From a virus, in IMG/VR virus record IMGVR_UViG_3300044726_000041, positions 1-39,938 of that record: 39,938 bases of DNA; one strand, given 5' to 3'. Numbering within the stretch: the first letter of the stretch is position 1; every line of letters begins with the position of its first letter. A model generated the notes under the pieces. That model saw only the letters and a list, made by a program, of their open reading frames with translations, searched no databases and was not told the origin of the DNA. Made by a program: the position numbers and the translations under genes. Below are positions 799-39,938 of this stretch, piece by piece.

Positions 799-933
799 CT
801 ACCCCTTGAAGAAGTAAGCAATCAACGCTGTTACAAAGGCTACAATCATACCCTCTAGTGCCAAGACTACGATTCGCAGCTTGGCCTCTAGCAGGGCTAT
901 CCTTGTGGGGATGTCGGCGTCAGCAGGTGGCAT
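799..933 (-). CDS. Small membrane protein, possible XhlA/holin-like
   Basis: A 44-residue protein has a short amphipathic coiled-coil-like N-terminus (TRIALLEAKLR) followed by one hydrophobic segment near residues 20-41 and a terminal Lys-Gly. This layout is like small XhlA-type or single-span holin-like proteins, but no family is certain. A longer frame starts at 1065, but it would overlap the upstream lipoprotein gene by about 146 bases. The ATG at 933 overlaps it by only 14 bases and has an AGG-type ribosome site, so I prefer it. The stop lies five bases before the polymerase GTG, so the lipoprotein, this gene and the polymerase are translationally close. A membrane role is supported by sequence; a lysis role is only inferred. 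Confidence 0.6.
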   Translation of the reverse strand: MPPADADIPTRIALLEAKLRIVVLALEGMIVAFVTALIAYFFKG

Positions 934-1621
934 TGGTGCTACCTGCTGTATCAGTAGTGCCTCCTGTACAATTACGTGTCGTTGTGTCGGGACTCTTGAT
1001 ACGTATGATGCCTTGGTTACCTGAGAGCGCGCCGGAGTTGTCTCCCACGTAGCGCCCGTCACCAATTACACCGTTGCCGTTAAGCGTGATGTTAGGAGTC
1101 AGTGGTCGCAGATTTGCGTTGTTAACTACATTGAACGCTCCGCCAGCTATGTCGCGGTTCGCAGCGTATCCACCTAGAGCCGTCGTGCTGAAAGCATTGT
1201 AGCTAGCAATGGTCGAATTAGCCTGATTGTTACTCTGAGTCACCCCTAGCCTATACCCAAAGTAACCTGAGGCTACTGCGGTCACGGGGCCAGCAAAGAT
1301 AGCAGCCCACTTAAGTGCCCTATCCTCTTGACTTTCTGGGATCGTCGGTATTTGTACGGGTACGAGCCTGGTATCCGATCCACCCCTGCCCCCGAGCGCA
1401 AGAGCCACTAGAGCAAGTTGCTTACTCTGAGGATCGGCTCGATCAGCTATCGCAGCCATAGCCTGGTAACGAGCCTCCTCAGCTCGAGCCTTGGCCATCT
1501 CCACGTTCGACTGGGAGGTAACGGTGAGTCGGTACGACTCCATTTGAAGGGCGTAGTTGGGGTCGAGCGTAGTCTGACAGCCCGCCTGGAGCATTGCTAG
1601 AAACAGTACGGTACGCTTCAT
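920..1621 (-). CDS. Predicted lipoprotein with internal membrane segment, unknown function
   Basis: The 233-residue protein begins with a lipoprotein signal peptide: basic MKR, a hydrophobic stretch and the lipobox LQAGC with Cys15 as the likely lipidated residue. A second hydrophobic stretch lies near residues 105-126 (IFAGPVTAVASGYFGYRLGV). The region before it is Ala-rich and helical; the C-terminal half is Asn/Gly/Thr-rich, low in complexity and repetitive. A GGGAGGAG ribosome site precedes the ATG. An N-terminal lipid anchor plus a membrane span recalls unimolecular spanins, but there the span is C-terminal, so I do not call it a spanin. It sits just upstream of the 44-residue membrane protein, and the two may act together at the envelope. 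No specific family was recognised. Confidence 0.75.
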   Translation of the reverse strand: MKRTVLFLAMLQAGCQTTLDPNYALQMESYRLTVTSQSNVEMAKARAEEARYQAMAAIADRADPQSKQLALVALALGGRGGSDTRLVPVQIPTIPESQEDRALKWAAIFAGPVTAVASGYFGYRLGVTQSNNQANSTIASYNAFSTTALGGYAANRDIAGGAFNVVNNANLRPLTPNITLNGNGVIGDGRYVGDNSGALSGNQGIIRIKSPDTTTRNCTGGTTDTAGSTNATC

Positions 1622-27004: not shown

Positions 27005-28168
27005 ATGCCCCGTAACAGTGCAGGTGTATATTCGCTCCCACCGACCAATCCGGTCATCCCTTTCACGACGATCGCAACGTCGTGGGCGAACCCCACGATG
27101 TCGGACATCGGGGCAGAACTGACCAATAGTCTTGACCGCACCGGTCGCGGTGGTATGTTGGCCCCGTTCCGCATCTTTGACGGTACGATCAGCCAACCTG
27201 GCTTAGGCTTCAACAACGAAGTCGGCCTGGGCATCTGGCGGTCAGGTACTGGCGTGATGCAATTCGTTGCTGCTGGGGTCAATCTATTTCGCATCGACTC
27301 AGGCCTAGGTGCTGCAGTCAGCCCGACCAAATTGGCGGTATACGGGGAAGAGCAGTTTAGAGTGCCCGGCAGTAAGTGGTGGCGAGTGTCTGATATAGGG
27401 GGCAATCTGCGATTTATGCCGTCAGCTACCGCCGATGCGGAAGATTGGGACGCCGCCAAGGGGCTGATATTTGATACAGCTGGAGGATTGACTATAGCAG
27501 GTGGGATGGCTGTTGGTACTAACGTATCTATAACTGGTAATTTGACGTTGGGACCAAATGCTAACTTGAATACGGGCCCAACTGGAGTATTGACCGTTTC
27601 GGGGTGTTCAGGCTCTTTTAATGTGGCTAGTGCTCCAGCTAAACTCAGTATAAATAATGCAGGCGCTGCTGGGGATGCGTCCTATATGTGCTTCAGTAGA
27701 ATTGGTCAATTCTACACCTATTTCGGCCTAGACATTGACAATCAATTAAAGTTTGGTGGGGGCAGTTTCGGCACTTCAGTACAGAATATACTCCATACCG
27801 GCAACTCATTCACTCTTGTGGCAGGCTACCACCTAGATGCCTCTACTCGTAATATCAATTCTACAGGCTCGTTTACTGCGGGTTCTGTAATGGGGGCTTA
27901 CCAATATAAAGGTGCGTTTAATAGTAGTTGGGACTTTCGGATTGCCCAGACTATTGGCGTAACCCCAGGATCTACCATCACCAGTATTTTATTGCTTGGG
28001 GGTCAGGTCGGCCGCATACTTGTAAATGGTGGCGGCTCTATCAATCTCCCCGCTGGAGTCAAGCTAGCCTCAGGTACGGCGTGGGGGACAACCTATTCCA
28101 TCGTTAGTATGTGGGGTGGTGGGGGTACGGATATTTGGGCCACGGTCACGCCGTATAGTGTTCCATGA
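27005..28168 (+). CDS. Tail fibre protein
   Basis: The 387-residue protein begins with a segment (MPRNSAGVYSLPPTNPVIPFTTI, SWANPTMSDIGAELTNSLDRTGRGGMLAPFR) that is conserved at the N-terminus of many betaproteobacterial podophage fibres and serves as the virion anchor. The remainder is Gly/Asn/Thr/Ser-rich beta structure as in receptor-binding shafts, ending in a Trp/Tyr/Gly-containing tip. No variable-repeat signature or reverse transcriptase is present, so it is not a diversity-generating target. GGAGAG precedes the ATG. It overlaps the next gene by four bases. Confidence 0.85.
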   Translation: MPRNSAGVYSLPPTNPVIPFTTIATSWANPTMSDIGAELTNSLDRTGRGGMLAPFRIFDGTISQPGLGFNNEVGLGIWRSGTGVMQFVAAGVNLFRIDSGLGAAVSPTKLAVYGEEQFRVPGSKWWRVSDIGGNLRFMPSATADAEDWDAAKGLIFDTAGGLTIAGGMAVGTNVSITGNLTLGPNANLNTGPTGVLTVSGCSGSFNVASAPAKLSINNAGAAGDASYMCFSRIGQFYTYFGLDIDNQLKFGGGSFGTSVQNILHTGNSFTLVAGYHLDASTRNINSTGSFTAGSVMGAYQYKGAFNSSWDFRIAQTIGVTPGSTITSILLLGGQVGRILVNGGGSINLPAGVKLASGTAWGTTYSIVSMWGGGGTDIWATVTPYSVP

Positions 28169-29067
28169 GCATTCTGTCCATTTCGGCGAGGCCGACTGCT
28201 AGTGCGCAGGTTAGTTCTTCATATGGCCCTCAAGCTTGGTTTCCTGGTTCGGCTAATATAGTTGGCTACCCTCCTGTTAGCACGGGCATGGGGTGGATAG
28301 TTTGGCAGATTCAGAATGCATCCTTGCCTACTGGTGAGAATTTTAATGGTATGACGTTCTCTGGAGGTACGGCCTTTGCCCCATCGGGTCGTGCGGCTAC
28401 CTTTGTTGGTAAGTTGTCCAAGACTTACGCAGCCTTCTCAGGCGCGGCGGGGGACACTCTCCTAACCCTGACGGGCGGCGCTGCGTATGCCCCCATTCCT
28501 GGAGTATATGCCCCCGCAATTGGTCTGACCACAAATGATATCATCGCCGGTAATTGCTTCTTCGGCTTTTCAGGTATGTCTGGCTCAGCTGTTCCAGGCA
28601 GCGGTAATGGCACCTACGATTCTGGCGCTCTCGACTGGACGATGTACTTCGGGACAGATGTCCCCAATCCGCCCCCGACATCCCCGTCCGGTACATTGGT
28701 TAACCCAGCTGCGAATAATAACCCAGGTAAGATAGTGGGTATACAGCAATTCCAGGCTCTGACCTTTACCCTGCTAACCCCTAGACCAACAAACAGCATT
28801 ACGTTTGTCTTCAGTTTTGCTGTTGGTTCTCCGCTCAGATTTGCAGATACAGGAACTACAGGCAAATCCATACCTGGCGGCGCTGTAGGTAATCCAGGCA
28901 ATCCCTATGGGCCAGTCTCATCGGGGCTGATCAATATACCTACTGGTACGCCTCTTGGCCCCCATATAATTGATGCACGAGCTCAGTCAGGTTCGTTCAA
29001 TACTTACGTTATACAGAGTACCTTGTTGGTTACGGGTAGCAGTGGTGGTGGATTCACGGAGGCATGA
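28165..29067 (+). CDS. Tail fibre-associated or tip protein
   Basis: The 300-residue protein is rich in Gly, Ser, Thr, Pro and Ala with beta-type repeats and no charged helices; it resembles a surface or fibre-tip protein more than an enzyme. It begins in an ATGA overlap with the tail fibre gene, so it is probably made with it, and could be a second receptor-binding component, a fibre chaperone left on the tip, or a particle surface decoration. No family recognised. Confidence 0.65.
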   Translation: MSILSISARPTASAQVSSSYGPQAWFPGSANIVGYPPVSTGMGWIVWQIQNASLPTGENFNGMTFSGGTAFAPSGRAATFVGKLSKTYAAFSGAAGDTLLTLTGGAAYAPIPGVYAPAIGLTTNDIIAGNCFFGFSGMSGSAVPGSGNGTYDSGALDWTMYFGTDVPNPPPTSPSGTLVNPAANNNPGKIVGIQQFQALTFTLLTPRPTNSITFVFSFAVGSPLRFADTGTTGKSIPGGAVGNPGNPYGPVSSGLINIPTGTPLGPHIIDARAQSGSFNTYVIQSTLLVTGSSGGGFTEA

Positions 29068-29294: not shown

Positions 29295-29496
29295 AATTCG
29301 AGGGCAGGATCTAATTGAGATTTTATCGTTGCAGCGCAACGCTGCGATGGATGAGGTCGCCAGGCAAGCAGCGATCATAAGAACAATGACTAAAAAGTTG
29401 GAGGAGAGACCGCAGCAAGAAGTGATTCAATTCCCTGTAAGACCACTTGAGGATCCAAATGAATCCGATACTCGCCTTGATCGTTCCACTGGGTAA
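29284..29496 (+). CDS. Small coiled-coil late protein
   Basis: The 70-residue protein is mostly a charged helix (GQDLIEILSLQRNAAMDEVARQAAIIRTMTKKLEERPQQE) likely to form a coiled coil. I start at the ATG at 29284, which is better spaced from AAAGG than the codons at 29266 or 29275. It overlaps both neighbours. No membrane segment is present, so it is not an obvious holin or inner-membrane spanin. Function unknown. Confidence 0.6.
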   Translation: MEHEIRGQDLIEILSLQRNAAMDEVARQAAIIRTMTKKLEERPQQEVIQFPVRPLEDPNESDTRLDRSTG

Positions 29497-29932
29497 TACT
29501 CCAGGCTATCCAGATAACACCCTGCCAGGTTTCGGTCGTCCGGTTGATCCTGGCTACGGCCAGGGCCATCCTGTTGGGGGCCATCCCGGCAATGCTCTCC
29601 CCATTCCGCCAGTTCGTCCGTCGCCGCCCATCGTTCTGCCCCCAGAGATGTGGCCTCCTCAGCTCCCGCCTGGAGTGTCCATCGACAACGAGCTGCCCCC
29701 GCCACGCTACGGTCATGTCTCGCCACCAATCGTCATTCCGCCTGACCCAAGCATCGGTATCAGTCAGCCGATTGTTCTGCCGGAACTGCCGTATGGGGTG
29801 GCAATTCTGATCGCGTTGCCTCTGGCTCAGCCAAAGGCTGACGATCCGCCGGGAACAGTACCAGCTATCCTTGTCCAGTCGGGCAAGAAGCCAGTACTGG
29901 TGTACGTCTCAGCAGCACCGTCACCGAAGTAG
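29459..29932 (+). CDS. Proline-rich late protein
   Basis: The 157-residue protein has a short hydrophobic N-terminus (MNPILALIVPLG) followed by a Pro/Gly-rich stretch (residues about 10-110) and a short folded C-terminus ending VLVYVSAAPSPK. Similar MNPILALIVPL-starting Pro-rich proteins occur in late regions of other podophages, without known function. The ATG at 29459, after GAGG, is chosen; it overlaps the coiled-coil gene by 38 bases in another frame. The N-terminus could insert in a membrane. Confidence 0.65.
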   Translation: MNPILALIVPLGNTPGYPDNTLPGFGRPVDPGYGQGHPVGGHPGNALPIPPVRPSPPIVLPPEMWPPQLPPGVSIDNELPPPRYGHVSPPIVIPPDPSIGISQPIVLPELPYGVAILIALPLAQPKADDPPGTVPAILVQSGKKPVLVYVSAAPSPK

Positions 29933-29937
29933 TGGTA

Positions 29938-29961
29938 AGCGGGGAGGGTGCCCTCCCCGCT
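29938..29961 (+). terminator. Strong hairpin, possible weak terminator or stabiliser
   Basis: A perfect GC-rich inverted repeat with 10-bp arms (29938-29947 with 29952-29961) lies after the Pro-rich gene and before the PEP-CTERM gene. No T run follows, so it may instead be a processing or mRNA-stabilising element. Confidence 0.45.
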
Positions 29962-29984
29962 GTGTAGTCCTCAAGGGGAAATAC

Positions 29985-30698
29985 ATGAAGAAGCTTCTAG
30001 CAGTAGCAGCGCTCGCGGTGCTAGCATCTCCAGCATTTGCGACGCTCCAACTATCAGCTAACATCAACGGCGTCATCTTTAACTGCCAAGACCAGGCAGC
30101 GTGTGATACCAATCCACTGGTAGGTCAGCTGGCGATTGCGAACATTACAGTCGCTGGAGTGGAAATTCTGGGTTCGGCTCAGACACAATTCGTCGGCGCC
30201 ACTAACTTTCTGAATACCTCCAGCTTTCAAATTATCAATCACAACGCCACTGCAATCGCAATTGCACTGGCTATCTCAGGCACTAGCTTTCTTGGCCCCG
30301 TCGCAGAGTTCAACGCCAGCGGCAGTGGAACGTGGCAGAACGCCATCGGAAGCAATCTGAACCTGCTGTACTACGGTGACCCAGCTAATGCCCAAGGTGC
30401 AGACAATCCGACTGATCTACCAGGTACGCTACTCGCCAGCTTCGCCGACGCAGCCCTTCTACTGACCGACTCCTTCAGCTTCAGTACTAGTGGCCCATTT
30501 GCAGCTGCTAACCTGTACAGTATGAGCCTGGGTACTAACGGCACCCTCGCCGGCTGGAATGGTGTAGCGGGTCAGGAAGCTACTCTGGTTGGTCGTAGCC
30601 AAGCCATCGTTACACTGCAATCAGTACCAGAGCCAACGACCCTCGCCCTTGCGGGTTTGGGACTGCTCGCTGCGGGATGGACTCGTCGCAGAGCCTGA
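29985..30698 (+). CDS. PEP-CTERM surface protein encoded by the phage
   Basis: The 237-residue protein has a Sec signal peptide (MKKLL, hydrophobic core, ASPAFA with cleavage after Ala19) and a C-terminal PEP-CTERM tail: VPEP at about 214-217, a hydrophobic helix (TLALAGLGLLAAGW) and a final TRRRA basic cluster. PEP-CTERM proteins are cleaved by host exosortase and are linked to exopolysaccharide and the cell surface. The mature body is a low-charge Asn/Ala/Gly/Ser beta-type domain with two Cys (near residues 33 and 39). I start at the ATG at 29985, preceded by AAGGGG; a longer frame from 29871 would lose the signal peptide. Last rightward gene, behind a hairpin, it looks like a cargo gene. 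Confidence 0.88.
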   Translation: MKKLLAVAALAVLASPAFATLQLSANINGVIFNCQDQAACDTNPLVGQLAIANITVAGVEILGSAQTQFVGATNFLNTSSFQIINHNATAIAIALAISGTSFLGPVAEFNASGSGTWQNAIGSNLNLLYYGDPANAQGADNPTDLPGTLLASFADAALLLTDSFSFSTSGPFAAANLYSMSLGTNGTLAGWNGVAGQEATLVGRSQAIVTLQSVPEPTTLALAGLGLLAAGWTRRRA

Positions 30699-30836
30699 AT
30701 TAGCCTGCTCTAGCGCGTCCGCGCTAGAGGCTCCGGGTATCTGGGAAATTTTCTAGCGACGCTCCTAGCAGGTTTATTCAGTCTCTAAATCCTGCTCGGA
30801 GCGTCGGCCCGATACCCCTACCGGGCCACTAGGTTG
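30699..30836. repeat. Inverted repeats at convergence of the two arms
   Basis: Between the converging ends of the PEP-CTERM gene and the DUF3310 gene are: a perfect 10-bp inverted repeat (30708-30717 with 30720-30729), a long hairpin with 16-bp arms and one mismatch (30757-30772 with 30791-30806), a 6-bp pair (30806-30811 with 30822-30827), and GGGTATC (30735-30741) complementary to 30811-30817. No clear T run exists on either strand. It probably serves as a bidirectional transcription stop or mRNA 3'-end structure. Confidence 0.6.
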
Positions 30837-31334
30837 TTACCCTTGATTGACGTAGGCGCCAGTTGGTGCAGCAGGATCAGGGCAGTTCATGTGGGCATAT
30901 CCAGGGAAGTAGCCATGTGGACACCTGACCTCTCCCCGGCATTTACGACAGGTAAACAAGGCACCTTTGCCGTCAGTGCCTTCGTATGAGAATCTCACCC
31001 AGCCCGTAGGATTGACTTCGTGCGGGTCTACGGGAGCAGCTTCTACTGGGATTTTGTAGCCACGCACCGGATCGGCCTCTGACGGGATAGCATCTATTAC
31101 TGGTGTCTTGTCCCCCTCCAGCAGTTCGATGTACTTCGCCAGGAAATGCTGGGCCTTCTTCAGATCCTGAATCCCTCCCTTGTCCCGGTAACGACAGATA
31201 TACTTCGTGATCTGCCCTTGGAAGTAATCCATGTTTAGGATCCACGCAAAATCCCAGTGTTGCAGATTGAATGGGCCGGCAGTGCTTCGTAGTTGATAGT
31301 GGACTCCGCCCACTTGGTGATTGTTCTGGCTCAA
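30837..31334 (-). CDS. DUF3310 protein with C-terminal zinc-binding extension
   Basis: The N-terminal half of this 165-residue protein matches DUF3310 (QVGGVHYQ, then MDYFQGQITKYICRYRDKGGIQDLKKAQHFLAKYIELLE), a family common in phages near nucleotide-metabolism genes and sometimes called SaV-like or nucleotide kinase-related without firm proof. The C-terminal part (about 115-155) adds CRKCRGEVRCPHGYFPGYAHMNC, a probable zinc site. The start is a TTG in a TTGA overlap with the upstream HD gene, preceded by AAGGAG. It is the last gene of the leftward arm. Confidence 0.75.
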   Translation of the reverse strand: MSQNNHQVGGVHYQLRSTAGPFNLQHWDFAWILNMDYFQGQITKYICRYRDKGGIQDLKKAQHFLAKYIELLEGDKTPVIDAIPSEADPVRGYKIPVEAAPVDPHEVNPTGWVRFSYEGTDGKGALFTCRKCRGEVRCPHGYFPGYAHMNCPDPAAPTGAYVNQG

Positions 31335-31903
31335 TGCTTTACTCCTTGAGGTGATTCCTCGAATTCAGGAATGTTGACGTACGGGTTGGAAGCTAGTACC
31401 TTGAAGAGATCCATCGCTCTCTTGTGAGTCTTGAGCGGCCCTCGGAGTAGGTTGTTAGCATGGACTATCCCCCGCATGAGCATCTCAAAGACAATCTGAT
31501 TCCCGACGGCCACTTCCTCGACGCACTTAAAGTTGAGATCCATGATGTCGGCGAATTTGACTAGGGCGTCATCGAACTCGGGCAGCTTCTCGACAGGAAA
31601 GCCCATATCCTTGACGATCTTCTCCTCCAGGGCTTCAATGACCGTATTGAACTCAGGAGCCATCCATTTCGTGGGCGCGGGAATGTCCCCCGTTACCAAT
31701 TCGGGGGCATCGTGGTAAAGCACCGCCGTTACCACACTTAAAGGTGGCTTATCATCGTACAGGAAATAGATGGTCATTAGCATGTTAGCCGTGTGCTCTC
31801 CCACGTTTTCAGGTACGGCCATGAAGGGGACAGTATGAAACCTCCGCACTTTGAAGGCTTCACGCATGAACATCAAACGGTCACCTTTTGTTTTCACGGT
31901 CAT
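31331..31903 (-). CDS. HD-domain 5'-deoxynucleotidase (YfbR-like)
   Basis: The 190-residue protein has the HD hydrolase signature: ENVGEHTANM (His37), LYHDAPELVTGDIPAPTK (His64-Asp65, Glu68, Asp73) and KFADIMD (Asp119), as in YfbR 5'-nucleotidases that dephosphorylate dNMPs. In phages with modified thymine, related HD or dTMP phosphatases lower the host dTMP/dTTP pool, so it may keep ordinary thymidine out of the DNA. It overlaps the TS-fold gene upstream by 23 bases. The start is uncertain: the ATG at 31903 sits right on its ribosome site, and GTG at 31897 or ATG at 31873 are alternatives. Confidence 0.8.
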   Translation of the reverse strand: MTVKTKGDRLMFMREAFKVRRFHTVPFMAVPENVGEHTANMLMTIYFLYDDKPPLSVVTAVLYHDAPELVTGDIPAPTKWMAPEFNTVIEALEEKIVKDMGFPVEKLPEFDDALVKFADIMDLNFKCVEEVAVGNQIVFEMLMRGIVHANNLLRGPLKTHKRAMDLFKVLASNPYVNIPEFEESPQGVKH

Positions 31904-32867
31904 CCTTCACACGAACTAGCCAGTCGACGCAGCCCTTGCGCCAGTCGTCATCGTAGATGCGGCTAGCAACGTGGATCGCCTTGTGTAGATCGTCCTGTTT
32001 GTAAATCTCCCAGGCATCGTACATGGGGACTGCGTTATCCCGCAGAATTCTGCACTGATACGGGCGATTACTGTGGATTCCCTCTTCCACGAATCGTATG
32101 GCCTCGTCCTGATCAAAATTTCGCGGGCCAAATCTCCAAGCTTGTAGGGTAGGTCGCTGAGTATACCAATCGTCCCATCCACCTCTTTCCCACTTATCCT
32201 CCCACCCTAGATACACGTGTAGGTTATTGGTGAATTGGTACATATTGCCGATTTCCAGGTCTACTGCGTTGGCGATATACTCTTGAAGAATCGACATGTG
32301 AACGAAATTCGCCCCCAACATGCCCCAGACCAGGTCGTTAGACCTGTTACAGATAGTCATGTGGAGGTAGTTTTCCTGCACCTTGAAGTAGACGTGGGTG
32401 TTGCACGGGAGGTCTTTACTGAAGGACTCCAAATCGACCTCAGGATCCCACATACCGAGGACAGCCCGTCGAGTATGTGAATCCTTCTTCAGCATGTAGA
32501 TTATCTGCTCGATCTGGTCGGCCCCGAAGTGATGTTTCCACCTATGCCCGTAGGCTGCGTGGAACGTCGTTCCGTTGTCCGAGTATTGCTTGATGTTCTG
32601 CGCAAACTTCGCCAGGAACGGCACAGAATTGGCACCCGCGAGCATCCAGATTGCTTCCATGTAGTGGAAGAACGGGTTGGCGTTCCGTATGGGGTCGAAC
32701 AAGACCCTGCGGTACGGGGAGGTGTGAGTAAGAAGCACTGGTTCTTGGAATACCAAGGCTGCACCATTTCGGGTCATCTCCTCTCTGACGTAGTGGTGCT
32801 TGGTATATTGAAGCTCGTAGTACGCCTCATTCACGTCGGTGTACGTTAGACTGAGTGGACTAGACAT
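31881..32867 (-). CDS. Thymidylate synthase-fold enzyme, probably deoxyuridylate hydroxymethyltransferase
   Basis: The 328-residue protein keeps the core of the thymidylate synthase/dNMP hydroxymethylase family: EAIWML (Glu71), YGHRW (106-110), catalytic Cys155 in DLPCNTHVYF, RSND (175-178), Asn187 and NNLHVY (His217, Tyr219). Retained Asn187, equivalent by eye to E. coli Asn177, fits dUMP rather than dCMP as substrate. The Trp that shields the methylene intermediate in true thymidylate synthase (E. coli Trp80) has no clear counterpart, which would favour water addition and 5-hydroxymethyl-dUMP. With the base-modifying genes around it, a hydroxymethyltransferase is more likely than thymidylate synthase, but this is inference. 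GGAGG precedes the ATG at 32867; longer N-terminal frame is rejected. Confidence 0.85.
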   Translation of the reverse strand: MSSPLSLTYTDVNEAYYELQYTKHHYVREEMTRNGAALVFQEPVLLTHTSPYRRVLFDPIRNANPFFHYMEAIWMLAGANSVPFLAKFAQNIKQYSDNGTTFHAAYGHRWKHHFGADQIEQIIYMLKKDSHTRRAVLGMWDPEVDLESFSKDLPCNTHVYFKVQENYLHMTICNRSNDLVWGMLGANFVHMSILQEYIANAVDLEIGNMYQFTNNLHVYLGWEDKWERGGWDDWYTQRPTLQAWRFGPRNFDQDEAIRFVEEGIHSNRPYQCRILRDNAVPMYDAWEIYKQDDLHKAIHVASRIYDDDWRKGCVDWLVRVKDDRENKR

Positions 32868-33111
32868 TGATATTCCTCCAGAAAGTGATGGTTCCTGAGG
32901 CGTGTCGCTTATACCACCCAAGCATCTTCCCCTCCTGGACGTTCCAGCACTCGACCGTCGTGTTGATCTGTTGCCACTGGAGGAACTTGATTGCCCCATC
33001 TAGACACCGAACGGGATCGCTGTAATTCCGTCCGGGCAATCCGTAGTCCTTGAAGAAGTGTCGATAGGGTCTGGTCGTTTTGGGCTGTATTTCAATCGGC
33101 ATTCTAGCCAT
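32860..33111 (-). CDS. Small conserved-looking protein within base-modification cassette
   Basis: The 83-residue protein (MPIEIQPKTTRPYRHFFKDYGLPGRNYSDPVRCLDGAIKFLQWQQINTTVECWNV...) looks like a compact alpha/beta protein with a basic surface and no known motif. AGAGG precedes the ATG, and it overlaps the TS-fold gene by 8 bases, so the two are translationally coupled. Its place between the HMUDK_hel-like and TS-fold genes suggests a role in thymine modification, possibly as a small subunit or effector. Function unknown. Confidence 0.68.
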   Translation of the reverse strand: MARMPIEIQPKTTRPYRHFFKDYGLPGRNYSDPVRCLDGAIKFLQWQQINTTVECWNVQEGKMLGWYKRHASGTITFWRNINV

Positions 33112-33137: not shown

Positions 33138-33959
33138 TTATTTGCCAGGGTATCCTGATCTCGGTTTCCCCTGACCTAACCTAACACGTTGGTACTTGTC
33201 GAACTCACATAGGCAATTCTGAATATCCTGGAGACAGAGATCAGTCCGTCCAAGTTTTAGCTTCACCTCCCTCATCTCTTGCAGCCCTCGGGCTTGGTTA
33301 ACTGTATCAGTGAGAGGTCTGTCGTGAAGCCTATTCAGACCCCTAGCACTACCTGGACCAATAGCAGCCCAGGTATACCAATCTTCAGCCTGCTCCAGCA
33401 CTATTGAATGCTTTAAATCTGCGATAATCTGCCCCGCTATGAACGGACCCACGCAAGGATAGCGATTCTGAATTATAGTCTCCCAGCTCTTCTGGATCGA
33501 ACTGGGGTCAAGCTTCGGTGGATTCTTGAAGTACGTGTTCGCATTGCCCGTTACCCACGCATTCTTGCGTACTCCAGTCGGCCCCGCCGTGATCATATAG
33601 GCACCGGTATAGACCTTGTTACCCTGGGCCTGATATTCGTCCAGCTTCTTACAGAAAACATCTTCGTTCCACTCTGCGGGGAAGCCAATATACTCAAGAG
33701 TGCTAGGCCAATTGATCGTCCGACCGAGCATGATGGCGGGGACAAAATTCTTCTCAAACCAGTACTTGTCACTTCGCCAATTGTCGGCGAACCACTGGGT
33801 AACCTTGTCATCTTCCCGCCGTACATTGCAGAACTTGTAGGCCTGAAAGATTGGGTCTTTAGACCACGGTCGGGGGACTCCTGTTTCCTTGAGGTCGTGG
33901 ACGCGCTGACGCTCGTTCATCCAGTAGTCGAGTATCACGAATTGATCTGGATTAAGCAT
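33138..33959 (-). CDS. HMUDK_hel / aGPT-Pplase-type DNA base hypermodification protein
   Basis: The 273-residue protein has the signature of the helical domain tied to 5-hydroxymethyl-dU DNA kinases and thymine pyrophosphorylases (HMUDK_hel, PF18723-like): ILDYWMNERQRVHDLKETGVPRPWSKDPIFQAYKFCNVRREDDKVTQWF, then TGAYMITAGPTGVRKNAWV, and a C-terminal IQNCLCEFDKYQRVRLGQGKPR. In other phages this domain is fused to the kinase; here it is a separate gene directly after it. It probably binds DNA and takes part in replacing the 5-hydroxymethyl group of thymine. The ATG at 33959 has AAGGA and overlaps the kinase stop by 8 bases; a longer frame to 34001 is rejected. Confidence 0.82.
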   Translation of the reverse strand: MLNPDQFVILDYWMNERQRVHDLKETGVPRPWSKDPIFQAYKFCNVRREDDKVTQWFADNWRSDKYWFEKNFVPAIMLGRTINWPSTLEYIGFPAEWNEDVFCKKLDEYQAQGNKVYTGAYMITAGPTGVRKNAWVTGNANTYFKNPPKLDPSSIQKSWETIIQNRYPCVGPFIAGQIIADLKHSIVLEQAEDWYTWAAIGPGSARGLNRLHDRPLTDTVNQARGLQEMREVKLKLGRTDLCLQDIQNCLCEFDKYQRVRLGQGKPRSGYPGK

Positions 33960-34494
33960 TGTCGCCGTCCTTGAACAGATTGAATACTTCCTCGCCTGCA
34001 TTTAGGCAGTGAATATCCACGACCACCCGACCCTGGGTAATCAACTTCTGCCTCAGCATAAGGATTTTCCTGACTCGATTCCGAGTGTTCTCCTCATTCA
34101 GAGGTTTAGCATTTCCCTTAGCCAGGCGACGAGCCTTGACTCGCTCAATGCAGAGCTCAATCGGCGTATCAAGGAACGCGAAAACGTGACGATTCCCATA
34201 GGGCTCTGATGCCTCCCCAAGCCTGCCGTAATACTCTGATCCTAGCAGCCCTTCATAGAACACGTGTCCCTGCGAGGCGTAGTGATGAATCAGCGAGATC
34301 TGCTGTCCTGCTGTGAGGGTATCGCACCCACCGCACTGAGAGTTGTAGAGACCTAGCACATAGAGTGATTTCTTGAATCCTGGAATCGTCACCCTATATG
34401 CCAACTCTACTGGGTCAGTATCGCCCAGACTCATGAGGTGCCGAGCTACCGTGCTCTTCCCCGAGCCACTGGTACCGTGCAACTTAATAAGCAT
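33952..34494 (-). CDS. P-loop kinase, 5-hydroxymethyl-dU DNA kinase type
   Basis: The 180-residue P-loop kinase has Walker A GTSGSGKST (7-15), an unusual CGGCDT motif (54-59) after LGLYNSQ that is characteristic, as I recall it, of phage 5-hydroxymethyl-dU DNA kinases, and an AFLDTPIELCIERVKARR segment typical of kinase lids. It should phosphorylate 5-hydroxymethyluracil in DNA to make the leaving group for amino-acid transfer. It overlaps the SNF2-like gene by 11 bases upstream and the HMUDK_hel gene by 8 downstream. A plain deoxynucleotide kinase is the main alternative. The CGGC motif and neighbours favour the DNA kinase. Confidence 0.8.
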   Translation of the reverse strand: MLIKLHGTSGSGKSTVARHLMSLGDTDPVELAYRVTIPGFKKSLYVLGLYNSQCGGCDTLTAGQQISLIHHYASQGHVFYEGLLGSEYYGRLGEASEPYGNRHVFAFLDTPIELCIERVKARRLAKGNAKPLNEENTRNRVRKILMLRQKLITQGRVVVDIHCLNAGEEVFNLFKDGDNA

Positions 34495-38941: not shown

Positions 38942-39938
38942 CTATTGAATGTCCCACCAGTTCGCACCGGTCTCAACCTTAGCCTTGAACGGTACGTCCC
39001 AGCCTTGCTGAGTCTCCATGCTGGCTTTGATCTCAGCGATTTCACTCTCCAGATGATCCGGGTCTACAGAGTAGACGTTCTCATCATGGACTGTGATCAT
39101 AAACCTGCGGTACGGTGTCCGGTAACCTGTACTATTAATGGCTTCCTTCGTCTGGTCAGCTGCCGAGCCCTGAATCAGATAGTTCAGTAGCTTGTACTCA
39201 AACGTCCATTGATGACCGTTGACCAGTTTGGCTCTCTCAGCGTGTATGAGTCTTCCACCCCACGTCTTGACCGGGAGACCCTGGCGACCTCTTTTGGAGA
39301 CATCGTCCATGAGTTCTTTGAACCCGGGCAGAGCTTGGAAGTAGTGAGAGCGGATTTTAGAGGCTGTACCACGATCCACGCCCAGCGATTCGGCCAGTGA
39401 GTTGATCCCACTACCGTAAAGCAGCGAGAATCCGGTGATTTTGACTTGCTTGTGATCAAGCGAGATACCTGCGTCCGATTCAATGATTTTGGAGACGGCC
39501 TTGTGGAAATCGGCACCTGGATCATTACGATAGATCTCGGCCGCACGACCTTCAGCAAAGTGCGCCGCGATGCGCATCTCTTGACCGTTGAAGTCGGAGG
39601 TAACAAGAAGGTTACCTTCATCGGGAAGGACATATTGCCTCATGAATGGTAATGGGAGCAATCCTGCCGGAGGCTCACCTTTGAACTCGGTGGGGATATT
39701 CTGGAAGTTAGGATTGGAGCTAGACAGTCGCCCCGTTCGCGTGCCGTATATGTCGCCCCGTACTTGATTGAACTCGGGATGGAGCCTGCCCCCGCTACGA
39801 GTGGCTAGCTCGACCCACGGCCTCATGAAAGTCGTGAGCAGGGTCTTCAGATTACCTCTGTAACCGAGAAGGACTCTGAGCTCGGGGTCTTTGACGGCGT
39901 TGTCGATGCTGTCTTTAGCGACACTAAGCTTACCGGTG
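38942..39938 (-). CDS. DNA polymerase I (family A), C-terminal polymerase domain
   Basis: This is the rest of the DNA polymerase begun at 1-793. It includes TGKLSVAKDSI, the GRLSSSNPNFQNIP segment, motif A SDFNGQEMR (Asp377 of the joined protein), motif B KITGFSLLYG (Lys428, Phe432) and motif C VHDE (His546-Asp547). The catalytic acidic residues are all present. Phe432 corresponds to E. coli Pol I Phe762, the wild-type-like, ddNTP-discriminating choice. The joined length is 593 residues. Whether this enzyme accepts modified dUTP analogues cannot be seen here but matters because of the hypermodification cassette. Confidence 0.95.
   Translation of the reverse strand, partial: TGKLSVAKDSIDNAVKDPELRVLLGYRGNLKTLLTTFMRPWVELATRSGGRLHPEFNQVRGDIYGTRTGRLSSSNPNFQNIPTEFKGEPPAGLLPLPFMRQYVLPDEGNLLVTSDFNGQEMRIAAHFAEGRAAEIYRNDPGADFHKAVSKIIESDAGISLDHKQVKITGFSLLYGSGINSLAESLGVDRGTASKIRSHYFQALPGFKELMDDVSKRGRQGLPVKTWGGRLIHAERAKLVNGHQWTFEYKLLNYLIQGSAADQTKEAINSTGYRTPYRRFMITVHDENVYSVDPDHLESEIAEIKASMETQQGWDVPFKAKVETGANWWDIQ

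Follow-up and report, generated by a model that had tools for sequence, protein, structure and literature searches.

The closest described relative of the locus reported here is the PEP-CTERM/exosortase system (EpsH/Xrt; PF07589, TIGR02595, PF09721), whose substrates combine a signal peptide with a tripartite C-terminal signal. PEP-CTERM proteins attach exopolysaccharide to cells, and overexpression of one of them, the flocculation-associated PepA, moves exopolysaccharide from soluble to bound (PMC9850573). Cells that lose the exosortase CrtB show altered PEP-CTERM proteins in their exoproteome and adhere less well to polysaccharide (PMC12188702). On the phage side, there are known cases in which a phage-encoded, surface-exposed protein excludes other phages, such as the lipoprotein Ltp (PMC3952083).

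We analysed a 39,938-base IMG/VR virus record, the whole of which is referred to as the window, from a tailed phage of about 40 kb. One of its proteins carries the same signal peptide and tripartite C-terminal signal, above curated cut-offs; here, however, the substrate is phage-encoded and, in these searches, phage-restricted, the enzyme must be that of the host, and the mature domain has no counterpart among the families described in Pfam or NCBIfam. PepA (NF033554) has a similar architecture and aligns with residues 113–236 of the window protein, reaching upstream of the signal, but the score is 31.2 bits against an equivalog cut-off of 80, and the mature part alone gives no match. Like Ltp of Streptococcus phage TP-J34, the protein is phage-encoded and predicted to be displayed on the infected cell via a host export route; Ltp, however, is a lipoprotein and comes from a temperate phage, whereas here the route would be sortase-like and no lysogeny genes were recognised in the window. 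Phage morons are likewise accessory genes that sit at a variable junction and are missing from relatives, but in the window no separate promoter was found, and the flanking hairpins have no clear T-runs. Unlike a unimolecular spanin, the protein has no lipobox cysteine after its signal peptide. The open literature that we searched gave no account of phage-encoded exosortase substrates, although absence there is no proof that none has been reported; a substrate that is phage-encoded and, in these searches, restricted to phages appears not to be described in that literature.

Results

Identification of a phage-encoded PEP-CTERM protein

The gene encodes 237 amino acids (Table 1), and its product scores above the curated cut-offs of both relevant profiles: PF07589 with 30.7 bits against 20.7 (E = 2.9e-7, residues 213–235, positions 30621–30689) and TIGR02595 with 19.8 bits against 16. 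A six-frame PF07589 search of the full record returned a single match, of 35 bits, which is this gene; the same six-frame search of 14 control genomes returned none. By inspection, the signal peptide MKKLLAVAALAVLASPAFA, followed by T, has n, h and c regions and an A-x-A cleavage site (SPAFA/TLQ), of which A17 and A19 are invariant among 21 homologues. The C-terminus, SVPEPTTLALAGLGLLAAGWTRRRA, comprises a sorting signal that starts SVPEP, with VPEP at residues 214–217, a hydrophobic helix at 218–233 and RRR at 234–236, so that the PEP motif, the helix and the basic cluster lie at the extreme C-terminus (residues 214–237). A prior sequence-only reading had proposed a phage-encoded PEP-CTERM protein with the full exosortase sorting signal (signal peptide, VPEP, helix and Arg cluster) and had named these two profiles as its check; all four elements are present, both profiles match, and the observation at 29985–30698 is confirmed. 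Chance is ruled out, since the tripartite design is conserved in 27 other phage contigs. Judged from these sequence features, the protein is very likely an exosortase substrate.

Table 1. Coordinates of the PEP-CTERM locus and of associated genes (window positions unless a record is named).
Feature	Position	Strand	Basis or remark
PEP-CTERM protein gene, 237 aa	29985..30698	+	ORF (ATG at 29985, downstream of AAGGGGA; stop codon ends at 30698); PF07589 + TIGR02595; phage homologues
Shine-Dalgarno-like AAGGGGA	29973..29979	+	sequence
Sec signal peptide, residues 1–19 (A17-F-A19 / T20)	29985..30041	+	by inspection
Mature domain, ~190 aa, residues 20–210, predicted all-beta	30042..30614	+	AlphaFold2; conserved in homologues
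PEP-CTERM sorting signal, residues 213–237	30621..30695	+	PF07589 match; helix in AlphaFold2 model
Preceding proline-rich gene, function unassigned	29459..29932	+	cluster c78; homologue also adjoins PEP-CTERM gene in L026
Convergent gene, other border of cargo site	30837..31334	-	homologues flank junction without PEP-CTERM gene in L137, L138
Hairpin, 10-bp, GC-rich, no T-run, between preceding gene and ribosome-binding site	29938..29961	+	fold z = -3.2
Hairpin after stop codon, convergent junction	30703..30738	+	fold z = -2.0
C-x-x-C-bearing second-slot genes	L006 9215-9973; L015 10798-11604; L018 10723-11523; L021 10723-11511; L022 1809-2468		
Beta-helix genes (PF13229)	L016 11704-12852; L018 11720-13042	leftward	c1 cluster in other large phages
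Recurring gene copies	window 920-1621 (-); L003 1484-2095; L005 2125-2736; L138 9536-10165 (reverse complement coordinates)		

Conservation and predicted structure of the mature domain

The mature domain of the window member had no match in Pfam or NCBIfam, and a PDB sequence search with the family found none either. Among homologues, its conserved core comprises GSGTWQNA and L-x-x-R-S/G-Q, with 25 positions invariant in an alignment of 21 members. For homologue pairs with unsaturated synonymous change, dN/dS in the mature part ranges from 0.04 to 0.33, and one further pair has zero replacement changes; pairs that include the window member are saturated for synonymous change and were left out. 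As judged from these homologue pairs, the mature domain is under purifying selection.

AlphaFold2 modelling on the family alignment (mean pLDDT 83) predicts twelve strands and a C-terminal helix at residues 218–236. Foldseek returned weak, class-level likeness to carbohydrate-binding modules, tail-fibre domains and TNF-like folds, with query-normalised TM scores below 0.4, and we therefore read nothing from it beyond an all-beta domain. Matches of this strength are too weak to establish sugar binding.

Distribution among phages and cellular genomes

Successive scans of viral contigs found 1, then 13, then 27 loci, and the homologues on these 27 other IMG/VR contigs show 38–68% identity. They share the signal peptide, the mature domain and a PEP-like tail, except that the start is missing in L012, at a contig end. 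PF07589 scores above cut-off in 26 of the 28 records, window included; the remaining two end in VPEP..RR and, in L012, IQEP..RRR. Neither the isolate phages nor the plasmids searched yielded a homologue of the PEP-CTERM protein, and none was found in two scans of 84,980 bacterial and archaeal species genomes, which used exact short peptide patterns able to miss distant relatives, so that distant cellular relatives may exist.

As PEP-CTERM proteins are normally cellular, the gene might be a recently captured host gene without a phage function. The occurrence of homologues on 27 other viral contigs and the lack of a cellular homologue in the genomes scanned argue against a stray host gene; purifying selection also stands against such a capture, which we regard as extremely unlikely.

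The exosortase profile PF09721 had no match in 52 carrier records (28 + 24), and the enzyme must therefore come from the host. A tRNA search of the window found none, and the nearest isolate phages by portal or capsid have diverse hosts, so that we name no host for the window phage.

Genomic setting and accessory character

Late genes of the window phage run rightward from about 9.5 to 30.7 kb and encode terminase, portal, major capsid and tail proteins and a lysis-category amidase, together with a T7 gp14-like internal protein that scores below cut-off. Leftward genes encode a thymidylate synthase-like enzyme, a 5-hmdU kinase domain, helicase, exonuclease, ligase and DNA polymerase A. The PEP-CTERM gene closes the late operon, as the sequence-only reading had also concluded: it is the final rightward gene ahead of the leftward block from 30837, and is convergent with the first gene of that block. 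The search of the window found no sigma-70 promoter dedicated to it, and expression thus probably follows the late program; in L016, a promoter-like TTGCCA-17-TAATAT lies upstream of the PEP-CTERM gene. The upstream hairpin is not claimed as a family trait, stems of at least 9 bp occurring in 2 of 15 cases against 3% of controls, which is too few.

Two further features concern the phage genome itself. The PF18723 5-hmdU kinase domain (143 bits) adjoins the thymidylate synthase-like gene (33138–34001 and 31881–32999, both leftward), and together they suggest that thymidine is probably hypermodified in the phage DNA. DNA polymerase A is split across the record ends (1–793 and 38942–39938, both leftward), its parts totalling about 595 aa against 594 aa in L137, with the join off by one or two bases; the record is therefore probably a nearly complete, circularly permuted genome.

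Neighbours of the PEP-CTERM gene differ between records. It overlaps the portal stop as ATGA in L014, lies upstream of terminase in L012 and L026, and has tail genes a few kilobases away in L003 and L016; by sequence, the family occurs in unrelated phages. PF07589 had no match (0/40) in 40 records that share the window capsid gene, drawn from the best 80 of 424 matching stretches; some of the 40 are fragments, but 26 are at least 25 kb, and the window itself is detected by this search. A scan with the tail protein for close relatives found none. In the colinear L137, a single small ORF separates the homologue of 28165–29067 from the homologue of the convergent gene, with no PEP-CTERM gene between them; in L138 other small genes occupy the matching junction. 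The differing junctions mark this as a variable cargo site, and on these genomic comparisons the PEP-CTERM gene is accessory, moron-like phage cargo. In several phages, a further gene of unassigned function recurs, either adjoining the PEP-CTERM gene or occupying the same junction (Table 1).

Structural genes as neighbours, along with the weak Foldseek likeness to tail-fibre domains, could suit a virion protein, or an accessory for receptor binding, that joins the particles after its export. A signal peptide would, however, be unusual for a cytoplasmically assembled component, and the same family lies beside unrelated structural modules, which points to the host, and not the virion, as the protein's site of action; we consider a virion role very improbable.

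The arrangement of signal peptide, beta domain and C-terminal transmembrane helix, the late position, and the fact that no spanin was recognised in the window phage would fit a lysis or envelope protein with unimolecular-spanin topology, its PEP-CTERM likeness being due to chance. Such a protein is very improbable here, because TLQLS and not a lipobox cysteine follows the signal peptide, the PEP-CTERM scores exceed curated cut-offs, the phages examined that share the capsid gene lack the PEP-CTERM gene, and second PEP-CTERM genes, described below, carry unrelated domains. More generally, a lysis role lacks positive support, given the lack of a lipobox and the tail, portal or terminase neighbours in different phages.

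A second PEP-CTERM slot and exchange of tags

In 11 records, all from larger phages, a second PEP-CTERM gene lies about 0.7–0.9 kb further on. In L016, L018, L019, L021, L022 and L024 the two genes overlap or directly adjoin, mostly as ATGA. The second-slot mature parts form six groups without significant similarity, save for a short stretch of CxxC type that precedes the PEP motif in some of them (E = 4e-4, L015 versus L022), and hhalign found no relation between the first-slot mature domain and the second-slot family. An AlphaFold model of the slot-2 family reached a pLDDT of 64, and we drew no conclusions from it. L037 carries a different mature domain already in the first slot, with a tail nearly identical to that of L024.

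The short stretch, C-x-x-C-x-I/V-T/N-P, stands right before the PEP motif and is common to second-slot proteins with otherwise unrelated domains. Just past the PEP-CTERM pair in L016, L018 and other large phages lies a leftward gene for a right-handed beta-helix protein (PF13229; Table 1).

One second-slot family, A5, occurs on 27 viral contigs. Its close members have PEP-CTERM tails and the others PEPxxWA, VPLPA-like, VPxP..GAGLPG or VPIPP tails. The PEPxxWA tail scores 41.5 bits in L049, against a cut-off of 35, and 29.6 bits, below it, in L041; the VPLPA-like tail of L042 scores 23.1 bits against a cut-off of 25.35. VPxP..GAGLPG and VPIPP were named from sequence and match no curated model, and for these two types exosortase dependence is thus inferred. 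On a tree of A5 mature domains, the tail label needs six changes, against a minimum of four and a mean of 12.5 for shuffled labels, and PEPxxWA and VPxPPA tails each appear in two places. This pattern looks like what host-matched sorting would predict.

We tentatively suggest that these uncultured phages carry a modular, exosortase-dependent arsenal for surface display, in which a conserved PEP-CTERM protein is joined, in larger phages, by an often translationally coupled second slot with a freely exchanged mature domain, and in which the C-terminal tag is itself swapped to match the exosortase type of the host. If so, the C-terminal tag would be a readable host marker and a determinant of host range.

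Discussion

By analogy with the PepA and CrtB findings, infected cells would export and process the phage protein and then carry it on their surface or in their matrix. During infection, Sec would export the protein, and its C-terminal helix would anchor it in the inner membrane until host exosortase cuts at the PEP site; the freed protein would then come to lie on the cell surface or within the exopolysaccharide. Once there, it would change the outside of the infected cell, most likely through a tighter or masked exopolysaccharide layer that keeps competing or sibling phages off and spares progeny from being wasted on a cell already infected. That the protein acts on the host surface or matrix is, on this analogy, probable, and the explanation as a whole, accessory cargo presented via the host exosortase that alters the surface or matrix of the infected cell, seems to us fairly likely. 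Among the functions proposed earlier, host-surface remodelling fits best.

Superinfection exclusion is our first choice among the benefits, inferred as it is, but as the main benefit it is doubtful; expression is probably late, and exclusion is less useful late than early. The main rival to this benefit is matrix loosening by substrate competition: a bulk late substrate would occupy the host exosortase and leave host PEP-CTERM proteins unmatured, the matrix would loosen, and progeny would be freed from flocs or biofilm. The late-operon position of the gene, sorting tails of the host type and dependence of the phages on the host enzyme all fit such a decoy. A decoy would need the tail only, however, whereas purifying selection on the mature domain is strong and the domain is conserved over diverse phages, and we consider a decoy rather unlikely.

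If surface or matrix alteration through the host exosortase is confirmed, phages use a host sorting system that has been regarded as a chromosomal biofilm trait, and they have a new route to alter bacterial surfaces and matrix. Host-type tags would be a sequence clue to which bacteria uncultured phages infect. Small substrates borne by phages could in turn help to dissect how exosortases act on their cargo, which is still poorly understood.
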